DNA of 64,000 bases from Oceanospirillaceae bacterium. Its GTDB lineage: Bacteria > Pseudomonadota > Gammaproteobacteria > Pseudomonadales > Oceanobacteraceae. This document shows positions 25,251 through 34,946 of this stretch, one piece after another; positions within the stretch are counted from its first letter, which is position 1, and the number at the start of each line of letters is the position of its first letter. A program made the translations under genes and the position numbers. Location of the stretch: assembly GCA_002724925.1 (NCBI GenBank), contig PBQA01000014.1, positions 62,001 through 126,000 on the forward strand. The letters are read 5' to 3'. The notes under the pieces were generated by a model. The model worked only from the letters and a program-made list of their open reading frames with translations. It was not told the origin of the DNA and did no database searches.

Positions 25251-26282
25251 GTGGCCAGCCCAAAAGTCGCTGTGATAAACAGCGACCTTTTGCAGCAACG
25301 CATACTGGCAGAGTCTCTGCAGCGGCTGGGGTTTGAAGTAATCCTGAATATCCCCGCTGCAAGAATGACTCTGGCGGCGATAGAGCAGACTCATGCCGAT
25401 GCATGGTTGGTTACCTTTCGTGATGATGACGACGTTTGTGGCGAGAGTTTTGACGCTTTACTGAGCGGTGAAGCGCCAGTTCTGGTGGGATTGGACGATG
25501 CGCCAGATAATCATTGCACCAGCTTTTTGCGATGGGAAAAGAAGCTACTGACAAAGCTTCGGGATCTGACGGATACGCCAGCACCAGCGGCAGAAGTCAG
25601 TCAGATGCCATGGGAACAGAAGCAACACAGGGAGATTCCGCTTCCTGATGTATTTGCCGATGGCGCTTCGAAGCTTCCTTTGCAGATTTTTGTACTTGGA
25701 GCGTCCCTCGGCGGCCCGGAAGCCGTGAAAGAATTTCTTGATGTGCTTCCAGCCGGATTGCCGGTAGCGTTTGTGTACGCTCAGCATATTGATGAAAGAT
25801 TTGAGCAGGCTTTGTGTCAGGCGGTTGGGCGTCATTCTGCGTATCAACTTAAAAATGTCGAGAATGCAGCGGTACTGGCCGCTGGAGAAGTGCTGATTGC
25901 GCCGGTATCAACGACCTTCGACCTGGTTGGTATGGATCGAATCAGTGTAGGGAGTACATCCTGGGATGGGCCTTACGGACCGTCCATTGATGGCGTGATC
26001 GACGTGGTGTTTAATCACGCCCGGCAGCGTTTCGGTTGCATCCTTTTCAGCGGCATGGGTAGTGATGGAGCCGAGAGTATCTCGGCGCTGCCGCAAGGCA
26101 CAGATATCTGGGTTCAGGCGCCCGAAGGGTGTGGAAACGCATCCATGCCTGAAAGTGCGATTCAAACAGGCAGGGTCACCTTCGTCGGTGATTCGTACCA
26201 GTTAGCGTTAAAGCTGGTTGAACATCTGAAAGAGAAATGGACAGAGAATTATGAGCGAAAACCAGATCACCAGTGCGGATAA
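25251..26282 (+). CDS. chpB: CheB-type methylesterase ChpB
   Basis: GASLGGPEAVKEFL, YAQHID, LFSGMGSDGAESI; degenerate N-terminal region; position after chpA. Confidence 0.88.
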   Translation: MASPKVAVINSDLLQQRILAESLQRLGFEVILNIPAARMTLAAIEQTHADAWLVTFRDDDDVCGESFDALLSGEAPVLVGLDDAPDNHCTSFLRWEKKLLTKLRDLTDTPAPAAEVSQMPWEQKQHREIPLPDVFADGASKLPLQIFVLGASLGGPEAVKEFLDVLPAGLPVAFVYAQHIDERFEQALCQAVGRHSAYQLKNVENAAVLAAGEVLIAPVSTTFDLVGMDRISVGSTSWDGPYGPSIDGVIDVVFNHARQRFGCILFSGMGSDGAESISALPQGTDIWVQAPEGCGNASMPESAIQTGRVTFVGDSYQLALKLVEHLKEKWTENYERKPDHQCG

Positions 26283-26730
26283 TAAGCCTGAACAGGTCGA
26301 CTGCCTGCTGGTGCCGTTGAAGGATCGTAATCTTATTCTGCCGAACGTGACGGTAGCCGAGGTTATTCCGTTTTCGCACTTGCTGACGACAAATGCCAGC
26401 ACAGACTGGGTACTGGGTCGCCTCGACTGGCGTGGAACTCTGGTTCCGGCTCTGTGTTACGAACTGATGAGCGGTCAGGCTGCGCCGGCGCCTAACCCTG
26501 ATGCGCGCTTTATTATCGTGAATGGGGTCAATGCTAATCCTCAGATGCCTTTCTATGCCATCCTCGTGCAGGGTATTCCTCGATTGATGCACGTCGGTGA
26601 AAACGATCTACAGGAAGTCGAAGCCATGGGCATGGGGCAGTTTGATAAGGTCGCAGTGACGTTTGAGGGGGTTACCGCGATGATCCCGGATCTGGAACGG
26701 GTTGAGAATGAGGTGCTCATCACTATCTGA
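26251..26730 (+). CDS. chpC: CheW-like protein ChpC
   Basis: CheW-like domain, overlaps the chpB 3' end. Confidence 0.82.
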   Translation: MSENQITSADNKPEQVDCLLVPLKDRNLILPNVTVAEVIPFSHLLTTNASTDWVLGRLDWRGTLVPALCYELMSGQAAPAPNPDARFIIVNGVNANPQMPFYAILVQGIPRLMHVGENDLQEVEAMGMGQFDKVAVTFEGVTAMIPDLERVENEVLITI

Positions 26731-26805: not shown

Positions 26806-27624
26806 ATGTTCCAGCTATTACGCCGCCGTCTGCAGGGCCGGAAAGCAGCAATAGATATCCAACCTTTTAGCCGTTCACCGGCTGAGATTCCTTACCGTCA
26901 GGCCAAAGCGATTGTGACCCATGTCGCCGCGGATCGCTGTCGCAGTAATTTTCTTGGGTTTCCTGTCCAAGACAGTCCATTTGTGCAGATTCTCATCCAA
27001 GACCATTCTAGGTATGAGGGCAGTGCTCTAGAAGCCTTTTATCAGACATTTCAGCCTGAAACGGTTGGGGAACTTCTGGGGCTGAAGATCAGTGCAATTG
27101 CGTCGATGCCAGCGATGTCTGCGGTCATGCCGTGGTGGAACCGTCACCCGGAGCAACGCCTTGAGCAGGTAGCCGTAAAGTCGGGCAGCGGACGTTTACT
27201 GGGTAAGGAAGCGATTAAACTGGGTGCTTCAGAGCAGACTGACTTTGGCTGGCAGTATTATGGCCCAGTGAGTGCTCCTGTCGGAAAGATGGAGTATGAG
27301 CGACAGGTTTCTGTATTCCAAAGTATTCGGGATAAAGGCTTCCAGCCGACTTCAGCAACGCAGATTCACGGTGAATTTCTGGTCAATGGAGAGGACTGGG
27401 TGTGGGTGAATATTGGTGGAAAACACCGTCTGAATTCTTTGGTTGCGCTGGGTAATCCGGAGATTCAGGTGTCTGCGAAAGGCAAGTATGGTCCGGTGAT
27501 CATCCGCCGTAGTGAGTCTGCTATCTGGCCGAATGTTCAGAACGGGCTGTTTGACGAAGCAGAAGCTCTCGAATTATTCGATCGTATACTTGCGGGACGT
27601 GGCCCGGAGATGAAAACGCAATGA
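26806..27624 (+). CDS. Hypothetical protein with C-terminal ParB/sulfiredoxin-like motif, first gene of the glycan cluster
   Basis: SIRDKGFQPTSATQIHGEFLVNGEDWVWVNIGGKHRLNSLVALGNPEIQV resembles ParB/Srx G-HR-AL-ALG pattern; overlaps next ORF. Confidence 0.55.
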   Translation: MFQLLRRRLQGRKAAIDIQPFSRSPAEIPYRQAKAIVTHVAADRCRSNFLGFPVQDSPFVQILIQDHSRYEGSALEAFYQTFQPETVGELLGLKISAIASMPAMSAVMPWWNRHPEQRLEQVAVKSGSGRLLGKEAIKLGASEQTDFGWQYYGPVSAPVGKMEYERQVSVFQSIRDKGFQPTSATQIHGEFLVNGEDWVWVNIGGKHRLNSLVALGNPEIQVSAKGKYGPVIIRRSESAIWPNVQNGLFDEAEALELFDRILAGRGPEMKTQ

Positions 27625-28637
27625 GAGTTGCCGTTATAAATGATACTCGTCCGACCCACCATTTTGGTTGCATGCTGGTTATGGAAAACCTCCTTCGCTT
27701 ATTGAGTGAACAAGGGGTGGAAGTGGTCTGGACCTGGCCAGTCAGCGTTGACTGGCGTCGCCATAAAAAACGGATACTGAGTATGCCACCAGTTGACGCC
27801 ATTATTATTAATGGTGAGGGCACAATTCATCATAACGATAGCCGCCGCTTTTCTCAGGCATTGGTTGATATGGTGGACTTCGCTGCGGAAACATTAAAAA
27901 AGCCCTGTTATCTGCTCAATGCCACTTTGCATAAAAATTCCGCTGCTGCCTATCAGAGCCTGGGAAGAGCACGCGCCATTTATGTGCGTGATCGCGGTAG
28001 CCTGAAAGAATTGCAGGAATTCGGGGGACTGACTGGTGCCTATGTTCCGGATCTGACATTTGCATCAAATGCTTCGCATAGCAGCAATCAAAGCAACTCT
28101 GATCGAACCCTGGTGGTTGATAGTGCTGTTAAGGAGGATAGCCGTTTTCTTGAGGCCTATGCCAATGAGAACGGCTTTGATTTTCGCTCTATGGTCGTTG
28201 CCCGTCCATCTAATGCCCGTTTTCTTCGCAGTCCAAGACCTTGGGTAAAAAATGTCATTAAGTGGCTGAAATCGGACAGGAAACTGGCAACGGATGCAGG
28301 AAGTTATATTCGTTATCTTAAGGGCTACGGAATGGTTATTACCGGTCGCTATCATACGGTGACCATGTGCCTGAAAAACAGAATTCCCTTTGTCGCGCTG
28401 GAGTCCAACACACCGAAGGTCAGATATCTGCTTACTGATGTTCTTGGTGAAGCAGGCCGGTCGTTGACAGTAAGTAGCTTGACATCTGCTATTCCGGAAT
28501 GCCTGGAAAGTTTCAGTGAAAAGGAACTTGAGGCTATTGCTCTATTTACCGCGGATGCGGAAATTGCAATACAGTCGATGATTGCAGATATCTGCAAGGA
28601 CATCCGTCGTGGTGCAGAAGGACGATACGAATACTGA
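27621..28637 (+). CDS. Polysaccharide pyruvyl transferase family protein
   Basis: IIINGEGTIHHND, AIYVRDRGSLKEL, GYGMVITGRYHTVTMCLKNRIPFVALESNTPKV. Confidence 0.8.
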   Translation: MRVAVINDTRPTHHFGCMLVMENLLRLLSEQGVEVVWTWPVSVDWRRHKKRILSMPPVDAIIINGEGTIHHNDSRRFSQALVDMVDFAAETLKKPCYLLNATLHKNSAAAYQSLGRARAIYVRDRGSLKELQEFGGLTGAYVPDLTFASNASHSSNQSNSDRTLVVDSAVKEDSRFLEAYANENGFDFRSMVVARPSNARFLRSPRPWVKNVIKWLKSDRKLATDAGSYIRYLKGYGMVITGRYHTVTMCLKNRIPFVALESNTPKVRYLLTDVLGEAGRSLTVSSLTSAIPECLESFSEKELEAIALFTADAEIAIQSMIADICKDIRRGAEGRYEY

Positions 28638-28638
28638 T

Positions 28639-29643
28639 ATGAAAAGAAACTGGCTCAGGACGGCCAGGGCAATCGCCCGAGTTCATAGTATCTGTAATGA
28701 AAATTCGATCAATCCGCGCATACTGCTGGATGTACTCGGTGAAGCATCGGGTCAGTTACGAATTACAACTCTTAATCTTGAGTATGCCGAATTAGGTGGA
28801 GTGAATAATCAGGGCATGTTTCTCCATTATGGTGATTCAGGTCGTACACCGCTTGCTCTTTCTAAAATACAGGCACCGGAGTTAGCAGAGAGAGAATTCC
28901 GCTTTATCCGCTGGTCACATGATCAGGGTGAAAAGTTGACGGCAGCGCCAGTGTATTACCGCCAGCTCAGCAGCGATCTGGCCGTTACCAGCAGTACATT
29001 TCTGAAACAGCCTTCTCGATACCTGCCGTCCGTTATTCATGCACTACATTGGCGCCTTATGCAGGTGGACGATTATGAGCATGCTTTAGGGGATAGGCGT
29101 ACTTTACGGGCTCAGGTTCGTCCCGATACGAATATACGCAAAGTACTTCATCATCTTGTCAGTGAAGAACATGCCGGAAAAGCGCTGGCGTTTATAGAAG
29201 GTTTTCTCGAAGAACGAAGAGGGGTGTTGGGGCAGCGTATTCGTGAGCGAATTACGTTGGTTGCGCGTACAGTGATGCGTAACTGGGAGGCGTTGTTTGA
29301 GCGTGAGGTAGGTCTGGTCCATGGTGATTTTAAACGCCAGAATATTCTTTCTGTATCGGATTTTGATTATCGCCTGATTGACCTTCAGTACTATCTGGTA
29401 GGCATCCGTAGCTGGGATCTGGCTTTTTACTACTCCAAATACGACGAAGGGTTTACCTACGCCCTGATGGATTATCGTGGCGCAAACCGCATTCTGCGTA
29501 CGTCAGATGAATCTCTGTTTGTGTTCCTGTACCTCATAGCCTCTTCACTGAAAATTAAGCCAAAACATCGCGAGCAGGTAATGATAAGAAAGCTTCTTCC
29601 TGCACTCAGCTACTTTGAACACCAGGGAACCTATGCAGCCTGA
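28639..29643 (+). CDS. APH/kinase-fold phosphotransferase (glycan-cluster kinase candidate)
   Basis: GLVHGDFKRQNILSVSDFDYRLIDLQYYLVGIRSWDLAFYYS (HGDxxxxN and metal-binding D motif); start set at MKRNWLR. Confidence 0.65.
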   Translation: MKRNWLRTARAIARVHSICNENSINPRILLDVLGEASGQLRITTLNLEYAELGGVNNQGMFLHYGDSGRTPLALSKIQAPELAEREFRFIRWSHDQGEKLTAAPVYYRQLSSDLAVTSSTFLKQPSRYLPSVIHALHWRLMQVDDYEHALGDRRTLRAQVRPDTNIRKVLHHLVSEEHAGKALAFIEGFLEERRGVLGQRIRERITLVARTVMRNWEALFEREVGLVHGDFKRQNILSVSDFDYRLIDLQYYLVGIRSWDLAFYYSKYDEGFTYALMDYRGANRILRTSDESLFVFLYLIASSLKIKPKHREQVMIRKLLPALSYFEHQGTYAA

Positions 29644-30718
29644 GAAACAACGTCGTATCGGAATTATGGTGACAAGCCTGATGGGCGCCGGTACCGAAAA
29701 AACCATACTTACACTGGCAGAAGCTCTGGTCAGGGAAGGCGCTCTGGTCGACCTCTACGTCCTGCGCGATCATCGCGATTACACCCCTCAGGCGGGGGTG
29801 AACTGTATCTGGCTGAAAACGTCGTCAAATCGCGAGGCCAGAATCCGCCTGAAGCAGAGCATTTCTGAGAAGGGTAAGGATTACTACGATCTGTTTGTTA
29901 TCAGTAATGCTAAATACTACCCGGTGGTGCCGGTCACGAATAAGGTCTGCTCTGTACACATAACGCCGACAGCGTGGATTACCGATGGTCCTCGCTGGAA
30001 GTTCTGGAGTCGCGCGAGAAAAATCCGCAATCTCCGCAAGAAGTTTGCCGCGCGCCCTGTGATTGCTCTGTCAGGGGGCATCAGAAATGATCTGGTTAAT
30101 AATCTGAAAGTGCTTCCTGAAAATGTGAGGCAGATTGTTAACCCTTTCGACCTTAAGGCGATACGAACAGCTGCCGAGTCTGATGGCAACCTGCCGGAAG
30201 GCCGTTATATTGTATCCATCGCCTCTCTGAATGTTCGAAAGCGCCATGCAGATACAATTCGGGCACTGGGGTGTATGCAGAACACAGAGGTTTCACTGGT
30301 ATTAGTGGGCCGGGGGGAAGATGAGAATAATCTTAGGGCATTAGTCAATGAAATGGGCCTGCAGGAGCGAGTGATTTTTTGGGGCTGGGATGGGAATCCA
30401 TATCGTCTGCTTAAAAATGCAGCGCTTTCAGTTCTTGCTTCTGAGGCTGAGGGTTCTCCGCGAGCTTTGATTGAGTCTCTTCTTGTCGGTACTCCAGCCG
30501 TCGCGACAGATTGTCCATCAGGACCTTCTGAAATACTGATTGATGAACTGGCGCCGTTTTTGGTGCCAGTGGGGGACGTGAGTGCTCTGGCGACCGCGAT
30601 GGATCGAGCGCTGTGTGAGTATCCGAAAATTCCCGCCTGGATTGAAAAGCGCTTCGATTCTGCTGAGGTCGCCAAATACTACCTGGCGTTATCTGAAGAG
30701 GGTGTATCCAAACGGTAA
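29633..30718 (+). CDS. Glycosyltransferase family 4/1-type
   Basis: IGIMVTSLMGAGTEKTILTLAEAL, VSIASLNVRKRHADTIRA, SVLASEAEGSPRALIESLLVGTPAVATDCPSGPSEIL. Confidence 0.9.
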   Translation: MQPEKQRRIGIMVTSLMGAGTEKTILTLAEALVREGALVDLYVLRDHRDYTPQAGVNCIWLKTSSNREARIRLKQSISEKGKDYYDLFVISNAKYYPVVPVTNKVCSVHITPTAWITDGPRWKFWSRARKIRNLRKKFAARPVIALSGGIRNDLVNNLKVLPENVRQIVNPFDLKAIRTAAESDGNLPEGRYIVSIASLNVRKRHADTIRALGCMQNTEVSLVLVGRGEDENNLRALVNEMGLQERVIFWGWDGNPYRLLKNAALSVLASEAEGSPRALIESLLVGTPAVATDCPSGPSEILIDELAPFLVPVGDVSALATAMDRALCEYPKIPAWIEKRFDSAEVAKYYLALSEEGVSKR

Positions 30719-31950
30719 GCTGAGAATTGCAGAAGCAGGAAGATGACTGACAACATAAGTGTGAGTGAGGTCGCCCGAATTGACGGAGTGTTAGTCAGTC
30801 CGTTGAGTAAATAGACAGTCGACACCGCAAGCACAGACTGTGCGACGATATTCCTCTTATTTCTAAGGGCCCATGCTAGTGGGTATACGGTAAATGCCAT
30901 AAATAGTAGCCCGAGCGGGATGCCCATCCAGGTCATAGCGTTTATAAAATCATTATGAAGGTGGATGAAGCTGGTTGCTCGTGGGTGCATGTAGTCCTTT
31001 AACTCTAGGTTCTTTGCTTTAAAATGATCATTCTGCTGTCCGATACCAACCCCGCTGATGGGGTGTTCAATAATCAGGTCTTTGGCTCCCCTCCACATTT
31101 CAAATCTCAATCCCATTGAACTGCTTTTTACGTTGGAGGATATATTTGAAAGACCGTCACTCAGTCTGGAAAACATAGAGGACTGCATTACTGCAAATGT
31201 GGTAACCGAACTGAGTAAGATGACTATTACTACGGTTTTAATCCAGCCTATATACTTCAGGCCTACTAGAGTAATGGTAAACAGGGAAACAACCAGTATT
31301 GAAAGCAGTGGTCCGCGACTGCCACTCAGAATAATTGCCCATATTCCCAAAACACTTGCGAGAAGACTGACAACAAGCAGGATTGGATGCCTGAGGGGCT
31401 TCATAGTCATCATAGACATAATTACGGTCGCACTTAATATAGCCAGATTGGTTCCGTAAATTATCTGAAGTGAAATATTGCCACTGGTTCGGTAGCTCGG
31501 TGAACTGTGTGCATACTGGTCAATAACTCCGGGAATTGCCATGCATGCAACCGAAACTGGTAAAGCCCAGCGAAATAATTGAAAGGTAAGCTTGTCTACA
31601 GTAGCAACAGGCAGAATCAGGGCAAAGCATATCGCAGGGGTCACGAAGTCTTTTCTGAATCGATCTGACATTAAAGTTTCAGATAGAGATGTTTCCACCA
31701 GAACTATCGAGGCAGATAAGAGCAGAAGAATACTCAAGATTATGCGGGGATCTTTCAGGTCAAATTTTACCGGTAGATTATTTTTCGCGGTAAAACACTG
31801 CACCCCAACACGTAGCCAGGTAACCAGCGCAACGAGTGCAGACAGGTGGAGTAGAGTCTTGGTGATCTGGTAGTTCAAACCATAGGCAATAAGACCTGCC
31901 AGCATCAGATACGAAATCAGCCTGCCACTTGAAGTGAAAGTGTGGTTCAT
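30679..31950 (-). CDS. O-antigen ligase/polymerase-like membrane protein (Wzy/WaaL family)
   Basis: Polytopic; AIILSGSRGPLLSILV, HPISGVGIGQQNDHF, FIHLHNDFINAMTWMGIPLGL. Confidence 0.85.
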   Translation of the reverse strand: MNHTFTSSGRLISYLMLAGLIAYGLNYQITKTLLHLSALVALVTWLRVGVQCFTAKNNLPVKFDLKDPRIILSILLLLSASIVLVETSLSETLMSDRFRKDFVTPAICFALILPVATVDKLTFQLFRWALPVSVACMAIPGVIDQYAHSSPSYRTSGNISLQIIYGTNLAILSATVIMSMMTMKPLRHPILLVVSLLASVLGIWAIILSGSRGPLLSILVVSLFTITLVGLKYIGWIKTVVIVILLSSVTTFAVMQSSMFSRLSDGLSNISSNVKSSSMGLRFEMWRGAKDLIIEHPISGVGIGQQNDHFKAKNLELKDYMHPRATSFIHLHNDFINAMTWMGIPLGLLFMAFTVYPLAWALRNKRNIVAQSVLAVSTVYLLNGLTNTPSIRATSLTLMLSVIFLLLQFSAYRLDTPSSDNAR

Positions 31951-32936
31951 ACAATTCTTACCTCAATTCCAATTTTATCCATTAGTTCTGTCAGGCTATT
32001 TGTTTTTTCTGCGAGACATACGACCTTAAGCTGTGGGCGCAGCCAGCGAGCTGTCAGCAGAGCACTGGATATATCGCCGATAACGCAGCATCCCGGTTTT
32101 AATCCGCCCAGGAGTAGCTCGAAAGGAATTTTTGCGTTGACCTCTTTCATCCATCCGGCATTCTCGGTTGTTGCGGACTCTGAGCGTGGGTGGCGCTTGA
32201 TACCGCAGTTTACATGCTGACTCCCTTCCTGTAGCAGTAGTTGCTCAGTCTTTTCCGAACGTACAGATTCGTGAGGAAGGATGATTAATGCATTCAGCTC
32301 TGCTATTTCTGATAGCGTGTCAGAATAATCAGCGCCCAGTGAGGCGAAAGCTGGATGTGAGAGTAGATCCGGGATCTGCCGGACCTCTTTTTTCCGGAGC
32401 TGGGGCACTGCGTGTTCCGGAAATGCAAGGTGAGCCATCTGGATCCAGTCAGATGCACCGATTGTCTCAGGTTGTTTCCACCAGAATCCATAGGTAAGCT
32501 TTTTGAGAAGATTGTCTATGATCCCATCACTCAACCAGCCGGTCTTTCTGCCAATGTAAGAGTAGGTGCCGTCGTCAATGTAGTGACCTTTCACTGTGGA
32601 TGGCAGATGGGCCATAAGCCATTGAAACTCTATACGGCGGTCATTTCCGGTATACAGATCTGTTACGTCCAGACTCATGGCCTGCTGGGTAAGTTGCTCC
32701 AGAATGTTTTTGCGCTGCTTCTTGGCGTCGAGACTTTTAGCTTGAAAGGTAGCCAGGCGAATTTCTTTGAAAGGCGAGCCACTCCATGACAGGACTCTCT
32801 TAATAAATTCCGAGCTTTCATGAGGTTGATCAATCAGCCATAGGTCGCTGATATCCTCTTTGGGTAGTTCAAGAGCAATCATACTGGCAATCACAATATT
32901 AAATGGGGTAGACGCCAGAAAAAGGTGATGGGCCAT
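31947..32936 (-). CDS. Putative glycosyltransferase, polysialyltransferase (POLYST/GT52)-like
   Basis: FLASTPFNIVIASMIALE N-terminus, GHYIDDGTYSYIG; overlaps the Wzy-like gene. Confidence 0.5.
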   Translation of the reverse strand: MAHHLFLASTPFNIVIASMIALELPKEDISDLWLIDQPHESSEFIKRVLSWSGSPFKEIRLATFQAKSLDAKKQRKNILEQLTQQAMSLDVTDLYTGNDRRIEFQWLMAHLPSTVKGHYIDDGTYSYIGRKTGWLSDGIIDNLLKKLTYGFWWKQPETIGASDWIQMAHLAFPEHAVPQLRKKEVRQIPDLLSHPAFASLGADYSDTLSEIAELNALIILPHESVRSEKTEQLLLQEGSQHVNCGIKRHPRSESATTENAGWMKEVNAKIPFELLLGGLKPGCCVIGDISSALLTARWLRPQLKVVCLAEKTNSLTELMDKIGIEVRIV

Positions 32937-32947
32937 GATCAGTGATA

Positions 32948-34075
32948 TCAGCGTATGAATGAAAGAATACGGGAAGCCATTGAGTCCAGATGGTGGTCGT
33001 CAGGGTTCTGCCAACTTCCCGGTACAATGTGCTCATCTCTTATATGTGTCAGAAAAGCATTACGTAGGGCCTGATCAGGCTGCCAGTCTGCTACGTTTCT
33101 GAGGGCATTTTCGAGCCCCTGCTGCCCTTTTGCTTTGAGTGTCAGACCTTCAATTCCATAGAATGCCTGACCGAGAATGATAAGTTTTTTGTTCATCAGG
33201 ATAGCCTCCATCCCGACTGAAGAGTTTATGGTACACACGGCATCTGCATGACCGATCAATACTGGCGTTGGAGTATCGGTTTCAATATGCAGTTTTCCTT
33301 TGCGTGAATTGATTTTTTCAATCAGGTCACTGTAATCCTGCTCACAGGCTGGGTGAGGCTTAAAAACAACGTGTGGCATCTTATCCCCGAGTGTTTTTTC
33401 GGCTTGTTCAAAGTGCTTCACCATATCAAACATGTTTTTAAGCCAAGGGGAGAACAGTACAATCTGGCTATCTGTATTCACTTGAAAGGGAACGAATATA
33501 TATGAGTCCGGAAGTTTATCCGGGCGTGAAACTGGACAGGGTGTAACCGAAAATTCCTTGCAGTGTGTCTTGTAGTAGGCTGGTTCACGCGGTACGGAGT
33601 TTAGATAATTGATGCCTTGAGGATCCAGCGTGGTGGTCCCAGGGAAGAGTCCGCGTTCAATATACATGGTGGGTATGCCAAGGTCCCGGGCAGCTATGAC
33701 AGCAATCCGCTGACGGAACTTCAGGCCATTCCAGATCACAAGGTGAGAAAATTGCCGACTCTTAAGCGTGTGATAATAGATGCTGTATAGAGCCCGTGCT
33801 TCTATTAATTTAAGGGGAAATAAAATATAGAACCGCTTCCCACCTGAAGCGACGGAGGCGGGACTATTCTGTTTGGTATGTAGGAAGTCGATTGCCACCC
33901 GAATTAGTGACGACCCGGGAGCCCGGAATAGCGTGATTAACCATGCGGGTGTCTGCCAGAGATTTTTGTACCACAGTACCGATGTCTCACTAGCACCAGA
34001 GTGCCTCAGGTAGCCACTGAGTTTATTGGCATAATGACGATGGGTTTTTCGCGCGGCAAATATCGCGATCTTCAC
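32948..34075 (-). CDS. Capsular polysaccharide biosynthesis protein (KpsS/KpsC-like)
   Basis: YIERGLFPGTTTLDPQGINYLNSVPR, VVFKPHPACEQDYSDL, CTINSSVGMEAILMNKKLIILGQAFYGIEGLT. Confidence 0.78.
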   Translation of the reverse strand: MKIAIFAARKTHRHYANKLSGYLRHSGASETSVLWYKNLWQTPAWLITLFRAPGSSLIRVAIDFLHTKQNSPASVASGGKRFYILFPLKLIEARALYSIYYHTLKSRQFSHLVIWNGLKFRQRIAVIAARDLGIPTMYIERGLFPGTTTLDPQGINYLNSVPREPAYYKTHCKEFSVTPCPVSRPDKLPDSYIFVPFQVNTDSQIVLFSPWLKNMFDMVKHFEQAEKTLGDKMPHVVFKPHPACEQDYSDLIEKINSRKGKLHIETDTPTPVLIGHADAVCTINSSVGMEAILMNKKLIILGQAFYGIEGLTLKAKGQQGLENALRNVADWQPDQALRNAFLTHIRDEHIVPGSWQNPDDHHLDSMASRILSFIR

Positions 34076-34115: not shown

Positions 34116-34946
34116 TCAGATCAGATTCCGCCAGACGCGCAGGCTGGCCTCAGATTGGTTCAGGGTATAGAAATGAATACCCGGTGCGCCGCCTTCGAGC
34201 AGGCGATGGCACATTTCAGTGACGACTTCCTCACCAAACTGCTGGATTGATTCTGTATTGTCACCATAGGCTTCCAGCTGTTTACGGATCCAGCGTGGAA
34301 TCTCAGCACCACATGCATCTGAGAAGCGTGCCAGTTTGCTGTAGTTAGTTATTGGCATAATACCGGGAATAATTGGAATATCTACACCCATGTCACGAAC
34401 CCGGTCAACAAAGTAGAAGTAGCTGTCGGCATTGAAGAAGTACTGAGTAATCGCACTGTCCGCACCTGCCTTCACTTTGTTTACAAAGCGTTCGAGGTCG
34501 CTTTCAAAACTGGTCGCCTGTGGGTGCATCTCTGGGTATGCCGCGACTTCTAAGGTGAAGTGGTCACCGGTTTCTTCACGGATGAATTCAACCAGCTCAT
34601 TGGCGAAACGCAGTTCGCTGCTGGCCAGGCCTGCGCCGCTGGGCAGGTCGCCACGCAGAGCAACGATGCGGTCGATGCCCAGGTCTTTGTACTCGTTCAA
34701 CAGTGAGCGCAGATCTTCTTTGCTGTCGCCGACGCATGACAGGTGAGGCGCGGCAGCAATACCACGTTCCTGAATGGCTTTGACGATGGCATAGGTGCGG
34801 TCGCGGGTAGAACCACCGGCACCGTAGGTCACCGAGAAAAACTCTGGATTAAAGGCAGCGAGTTCGTCGCGCACTTTCAGTAGTTTTTCTGTCCCTTCCT
34901 CGGTTTTGGTCGGGAAAAATTCAAAACTTAAGGTCGTCATTTTCAC
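34116..34946 (-). CDS. metF: Methylenetetrahydrofolate reductase
   Basis: LSFEFFPTKTEEG, SVTYGAGGSTRDRTYAIV, AHPEMH-like AAYPEMHPQA, ITQYFFNAD. Confidence 0.96.
   Translation of the reverse strand: MKMTTLSFEFFPTKTEEGTEKLLKVRDELAAFNPEFFSVTYGAGGSTRDRTYAIVKAIQERGIAAAPHLSCVGDSKEDLRSLLNEYKDLGIDRIVALRGDLPSGAGLASSELRFANELVEFIREETGDHFTLEVAAYPEMHPQATSFESDLERFVNKVKAGADSAITQYFFNADSYFYFVDRVRDMGVDIPIIPGIMPITNYSKLARFSDACGAEIPRWIRKQLEAYGDNTESIQQFGEEVVTEMCHRLLEGGAPGIHFYTLNQSEASLRVWRNLI

Follow-up and report, generated by a model that had tools for sequence, protein, structure and literature searches.

The cheW–metF interval in the 64,000-nucleotide stretch of Oceanospirillaceae bacterium DNA analysed here (the window) holds seven open reading frames (ORFs) at positions 26806–34075. 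It is probably one allele of a lipopolysaccharide (LPS) outer-core locus, including a ligase gene, that is conserved in position and variable in content, with a substituent step involving ORF1, a pyruvyl transferase (PvT) and a kinase. Such a locus is ordinary in kind, the LPS outer core being its most likely product, and it contains one undescribed recurrent component. This component, the new element of the locus, is ORF1, whose sequence profile marks it as a ParB/sulfiredoxin (Srx)-like protein. The probable LPS-core variation of a marine bacterial family would in this way be placed at one defined, exchangeable locus, for which natural allele pairs exist.

The cheW–metF interval across the family

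The chpB and metF genes were located in relatives, the intervals were retrieved and their ORFs were called; the family sample comprised 45 genomes of Thalassolituus/Oceanobacter relatives. In most of these genomes the cheW–metF interval is a glycan locus of 5.6–12.4 kb. Among the 26 relatives with a contiguous interval, pst6, which encodes a POLYST/GT38-like transferase, occurs in 23, a gene for a Wzy_C-domain membrane protein in 20, and a KpsS-like transferase gene in 16. The original prediction had presented the window's genes as an accessory cluster and, in view of their unusual combination, as a candidate for an undescribed pathway. The word accessory was too strong, since throughout the family this interval is a glycan locus of variable content, with recognisable LPS-core genes in sister genomes. 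The undescribed pathway was likewise overstated for the minus-strand genes, whose types are common at this locus; what stands is the rarity of the set of ORF1, pvt2 (PvT) and aph3 (APH-type kinase), which was found in 8–9 of the 45 genomes.

The sister alleles of G024, G017 and G063 contain heptosyltransferase genes, those of G003, G014 and G011 YrbL-type kinase genes, that of G006 a gene for an EptA-like sulfatase-fold protein, and that of G015 ManC. Genes of these kinds are mostly typical of the LPS core or of core modification, and the interval is therefore read as an LPS outer-core locus. The fixed place with variable transferase genes that is expected of an outer-core locus was indeed observed. 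The OC locus that Acinetobacter baumannii has between ilvE and aspS (PMC4172580) is similar in its fixed place, its variable glycosyltransferases and the replacement of alleles between close relatives; the locus described here differs from it in the cheW/metF flanks, the Wzy_C ligase-like gene, the KpsS/POLYST-like pair and the ORF1-PvT-kinase set. The possibility, raised with the original prediction, that this is a conserved and already characterised LPS-core locus of the genus held by half: the neighbourhood comparison showed a conserved place, and no paper characterising the locus was found in a search on Thalassolituus and lipopolysaccharide.

Alleles of this locus have been exchanged between relatives. 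Judged by the flanking genes, the nearest relatives of the window are G003 and G008 (97% for metF, 91% and 89% for chpB, and 95% for cheW), yet their interval contents are almost wholly different, and only a pst6 paralogue of 36–37% identity and a weak Wzy_C match are shared. Conversely, G002 shows just 59% for chpB, and its interval genes are 77–93% identical to those of the window at the amino acid level. Because orthologues in the same order are found in G002 and, with 44–68% identity, in G001, the ORFs of the interval are regarded as real genes.

The seven ORFs form two convergent, tightly packed blocks, all at the places given by the original prediction. The plus block consists of ORF1 (26806..27624, 272 amino acids), pvt2 (27621..28637, 338 amino acids), aph3 (28639..29643, 334 amino acids) and a GT4 glycosyltransferase gene (29633..30718), the start of which was set at the ATG at 29633. 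The minus block consists of the KpsS-like gene (32948..34075, 375 amino acids), pst6 (31947..32936, 329 amino acids) and the gene for the Wzy_C-domain protein (30679..31950, 423 amino acids), a probable WaaL-type O-antigen ligase. On the plus strand, ORF1 and pvt2 overlap by 4 nucleotides, pvt2 and aph3 are separated by 1 nucleotide, and aph3 and the GT4 gene overlap by about 11 nucleotides; on the minus strand, an 11-nucleotide gap lies between the KpsS-like gene and pst6, and pst6 overlaps the Wzy_C gene by 4 nucleotides. The proposed co-transcription within each block gained support. The two blocks overlap by 40 nucleotides at their 3' ends. Matches above the curated Pfam cut-offs were obtained for five proteins, i.e., PF04230 (pvt2), PF01636 (aph3), PF00534/PF13692 (GT4), PF04932 (Wzy_C protein) and PF05159 (KpsS-like protein), in agreement with the predicted families. 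The AT-rich centre noticed earlier was also confirmed, as the G+C content of the interval is 48.1%, one of the lowest values in the window; equal-size sliding windows average 52.1% (standard deviation 1.8%). Neither the ORF list nor Pfam revealed a Wzx, an ABC exporter or a nucleotide-sugar gene within the interval, as had been predicted. Searches against Rfam and for repeats gave no matches, and no phage match was found.

On the left, the interval is flanked by a chpB-like gene (25251..26282, plus strand) and a CheW-like gene (26251..26730, plus strand), and on the right by metF (34116..34946, minus strand). The metF gene has the same orientation as the KpsS-like gene and ends 40 nucleotides upstream of it, so that transcription of the minus block by read-through from metF is possible. 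In two genomes of genus g2, a UbiA/HAD fusion was observed inside the cheW–metF interval (L065:2277-5020 and L066:4369-7490); in L065 it is followed by a FAD_binding_4 protein, an arrangement that recalls decaprenyl-phosphoryl pentose synthesis (UbiA, DprE1-like).

ORF1 and its association with pvt2 and aph3

ORF1 is present in 8 and aph3 in 9 of the 45 family genomes. None of the 8 genomes with ORF1 lacks aph3, and aph3 was adjacent to pvt2 wherever its surroundings were retrieved. ORF1 is located next to pvt2 in G000, G001, G002, G011 and G064; in G013 it stands at the opposite end of the locus, and G016 and G019 carry it at a different place in the genome. The copy that G019 retains at the locus is a pseudogene interrupted by stops (L017:9190-9765), with 82.7% nucleotide identity over 579 nucleotides to the intact copy of G013, and a divergent intact ORF1 (43% to that of G013) is found 3.08 Mb away from the locus. 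These rearranged cases are a stronger argument for the link between ORF1 and aph3 than a probability computed for independent genes.

A sample of 392 genomes of the order contained ORF1 in 12, six of them outside the family, and none of the other 398 genomes in a phylum sample had it. The six distant homologues, from three other families, all lie among glycan genes. In G376 and G289 a PvT-pst6-ORF1 group has waaA and a Kdo/WaaP-family kinase gene (Kdo, 3-deoxy-D-manno-oct-2-ulosonic acid) nearby; in G370 ORF1 stands beside a Stealth gene and a gene weakly matching the Wzy_C protein of the window; and in G203, G387 and G095 it is part of clusters judged by eye to be of the exopolysaccharide type. 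An ORF of an Acetoanaerobium megaplasmid (L124:9338-10711, 457 amino acids) with a distant ORF1-like part (22.7%) was set aside, as no glycan genes were recognised nearby by eye.

No relevant Pfam family and no DNA-binding domain was matched by ORF1 or its homologues. A profile built from 14 sequences gave SbnI as the sole relevant match in the PDB (E-value 1.3e-3), and in NCBIfam the SerK model was matched by 3 of the 14 members (best E-value 0.0098), which agrees with the earlier ParB/sulfiredoxin assignment. No other proteins of the ParB/Srx fold were found by the profile in these two databases. SerK and SbnI are ParB/Srx-fold serine kinases (PMC12704722), and ORF1 is similar to them (PMC5120207; PDB 6nr6, 5ujd) in the GxHR nucleotide-binding segment and the next strand. 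It differs from them in three ways: GG stands where SbnI has the Asp of DGVHR, the N-terminal part is longer by about 150 residues, and the setting is a glycan locus. The ORF1 motif is GGKHR (residues 204–208), and E163, R166, G205, H207, R208 and W241-P242 are invariant, so that the G-x-H-R nucleotide motif of the ParB/Srx fold is represented by G205, H207 and R208, which are invariant in 14 homologues. The spacing of E163 is presumably close to that of the catalytic Glu of SerK and SbnI. The sulfiredoxin motif is GGCHR, which the GG of ORF1 resembles.

We suggest tentatively, and with some doubt, that ORF1 founds a new ParB/Srx-fold family acting directly in surface-glycan assembly, e.g., as a nucleoside triphosphate (NTP)-dependent kinase that would build an unusual acidic LPS substituent together with the pyruvyl transferase and the APH-type kinase. 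Several observations weigh against this proposal. The match to SbnI and SerK is weak and spans about 30 residues around GxHR. The Asp of DGVHR is absent from the ORF1 family, in which G, K or H occupies the position, and for this reason ORF1 was not filed as a serine kinase. AlphaFold models of ORF1, built from three sequences, and of its C-terminal part were poor, with predicted local distance difference test scores of 39 and 44. In favour of a link between ORF1 and aph3, their co-occurrence would arise by chance with a probability of about 4e-8 if the genes were independent; this figure, however, ignores shared ancestry, and in a single case, that of G031 (81% complete), aph3 was seen with no ORF1 in the genome. 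A protein family with a probable ParB/Srx fold is tied to glycan genes here. The word 'polysaccharide' is absent from the main text of a 2025 survey of this fold (PMC12704722), and a search for literature joining ParB with pyruvyl transferase found none. Should ORF1 turn out to phosphorylate glycans or small molecules, a fold known chiefly from DNA segregation would gain a role in cell-surface chemistry.

Predicted roles of the enzymes and their donors

Conserved catalytic motifs were seen in several of the other enzymes. The pvt2 product scored 66.3 bits against PF04230 (cut-off 25.3), and its NGEG and RYH motifs are invariant in 11 homologues; in aph3 the HGDFK..N and ID motifs and K76 are invariant in 9 homologues. 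The Wzy_C protein matched PF04932 with an E-value of 1.5e-20 and has multiple hydrophobic segments. The window's pst6 protein fell below the cut-off of PF07388 (POLYST; E-value 0.0019), and the predicted family was borne out by its homologues, all 20 of which matched (best E-value 3e-14). The D-D/E-G, HP and S motifs of bacterial sialyltransferases (GT38/52/80), the roles of which are described in PMC5517516, are invariant in the 20 homologues, a likeness shared with the GT38 polysialyltransferases and with GT80 PmST1 (PDB 2c83). Overall similarity to these enzymes is low (E-value 0.06 to PmST1 in the PDB search), and unlike them pst6 occurs where NeuB was not found, so CMP-Kdo is a likelier donor than CMP-sialic acid (CMP, cytidine monophosphate). 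The KpsS-like protein has the KpsC beta-Kdo transferases as nearest solved structures (PDB 6mgd; E-value 5e-7) and shares PF05159 with KpsC and KpsS. It differs from them in being encoded by a single-copy gene, the genome's sole PF05159 gene, outside any capsule export cluster.

NeuB was not found in 12 relatives that have pst6 (one of which, G031, is the incomplete genome mentioned above), and the NeuB set of the window's own genome adjoins flagellin. From these two facts CMP-Kdo is the likely donor of pst6, and sialic acid derived from NeuB, which was considered, is disfavoured. The NeuB set belongs to a nonulosonic-acid-type pathway on contig C23 (L114, C23:4000-23900), with NeuB just before flagellin, and probably serves flagellin glycosylation. 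The source assembly (3.97 Mb in 38 contigs) also contains a Wzx/Wzy O-unit locus with its own polymerase on contig C27. Because of this separate locus, the Wzy_C protein of the interval is more likely a ligase (WaaL), and the idea that the cluster decorates the LPS core with precursors made elsewhere gained support.

Substrates, products and the order of steps can be proposed from the protein families. Acidic ulosonic sugars would be attached by the KpsS-like and POLYST-like enzymes, with Kdo (from CMP-Kdo) as the most likely one, and the GT4 enzyme would add a hexose. An outer-core sugar may receive a pyruvate ketal from the pyruvyl transferase and be phosphorylated by the APH-like kinase. 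As a putative NTP-binding protein, ORF1 would be the close partner of this PvT-kinase step, in the simplest case as another kinase, one of the SerK/SbnI type that phosphorylates a small molecule or a glycan. As the WaaL ligase, the Wzy_C protein would join O-units from the distant Wzx/Wzy locus to this core.

Alternative readings and other glycan clusters

Since Wzy_C covers polymerases as well as ligases, the interval might be an O-antigen or exopolysaccharide repeat-unit locus with this protein as its polymerase, and the exopolysaccharide-type surroundings of ORF1 in G203, G387 and G095 would suit such a locus. This seems rather improbable, however, because the interval lacks Wzx, an initiating transferase and nucleotide-sugar genes, contig C27 already supplies a Wzx/Wzy set, polymerase included, sister alleles have heptosyltransferases and EptA-like genes, and ORF1 lies near waaA and a Kdo-family kinase gene in G376 and G289. 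The Wzy_C domain is also common to O-oligosaccharyltransferases, and with the chp pilus genes next to the interval the cluster could glycosylate pilin or another protein. The LPS-core genes of the sister alleles and the waaA neighbourhood of ORF1 in another family argue against this, and Wzy_C is the sole PglL-type Pfam model matched, so that we regard protein glycosylation as very unlikely. A capsule locus of group 2 (KpsS/KpsC) that includes a polysialyltransferase is given hardly any weight; the KpsS-like and POLYST-like genes do adjoin, but a single PF05159 gene in the genome leaves no KpsC partner for KpsS, no KpsMTED gene is in the interval, and pst6 is kept by the 12 relatives where NeuB was not found.

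A further alternative concerns ORF1 only and is compatible with an LPS-core locus, namely that ORF1 is a regulator of the locus dependent on cytidine or adenosine triphosphate instead of a glycan enzyme. SbnI is named 'Bifunctional transcriptional regulator/O-phospho-L-serine synthase' in the PDB, ORF1 is the first gene of its operon, and many ParB folds bind NTPs only (PMC12704722). We consider this role unlikely, as ORF1 has no DNA-binding Pfam domain, accompanies pvt2-aph3 even when unlinked, yet is missing from most alleles of the locus, and its invariant E163 and GxHR fit NTP chemistry. The LPS outer-core assignment itself meets several objections. Its support comes from the sister alleles and from two genomes that belong to another family, and the core-specific genes (heptosyltransferase, core kinases and EptA) are in sister alleles and not in the window's allele. 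The only heptosyltransferase found in this genome is on contig C22, waaA was not located in it, and three genomes of genus g3 have merely 1.6–2.3 kb between cheW and metF, with no glycan cluster.

Wzy_C proteins were also seen in a different setting. At three places (L087:11203-13886 on contig C2 of the same genome, L121:11755-14421 and L122:4585-7400), one in each of three genomes, a Wzy_C protein of 443–483 amino acids adjoins a metallophosphatase-like protein (219 amino acids) and a small secreted-looking protein, which might form a dedicated oligosaccharyltransferase or polymerase unit. Contig C2 also has a second polysaccharide cluster (L087:15200-18790), in which a CysC-like adenosine 5'-phosphosulfate kinase, a Wzx-like flippase, a sulfotransferase-like protein and a GT2 enzyme were recognised by eye, suggesting a sulfated glycan.

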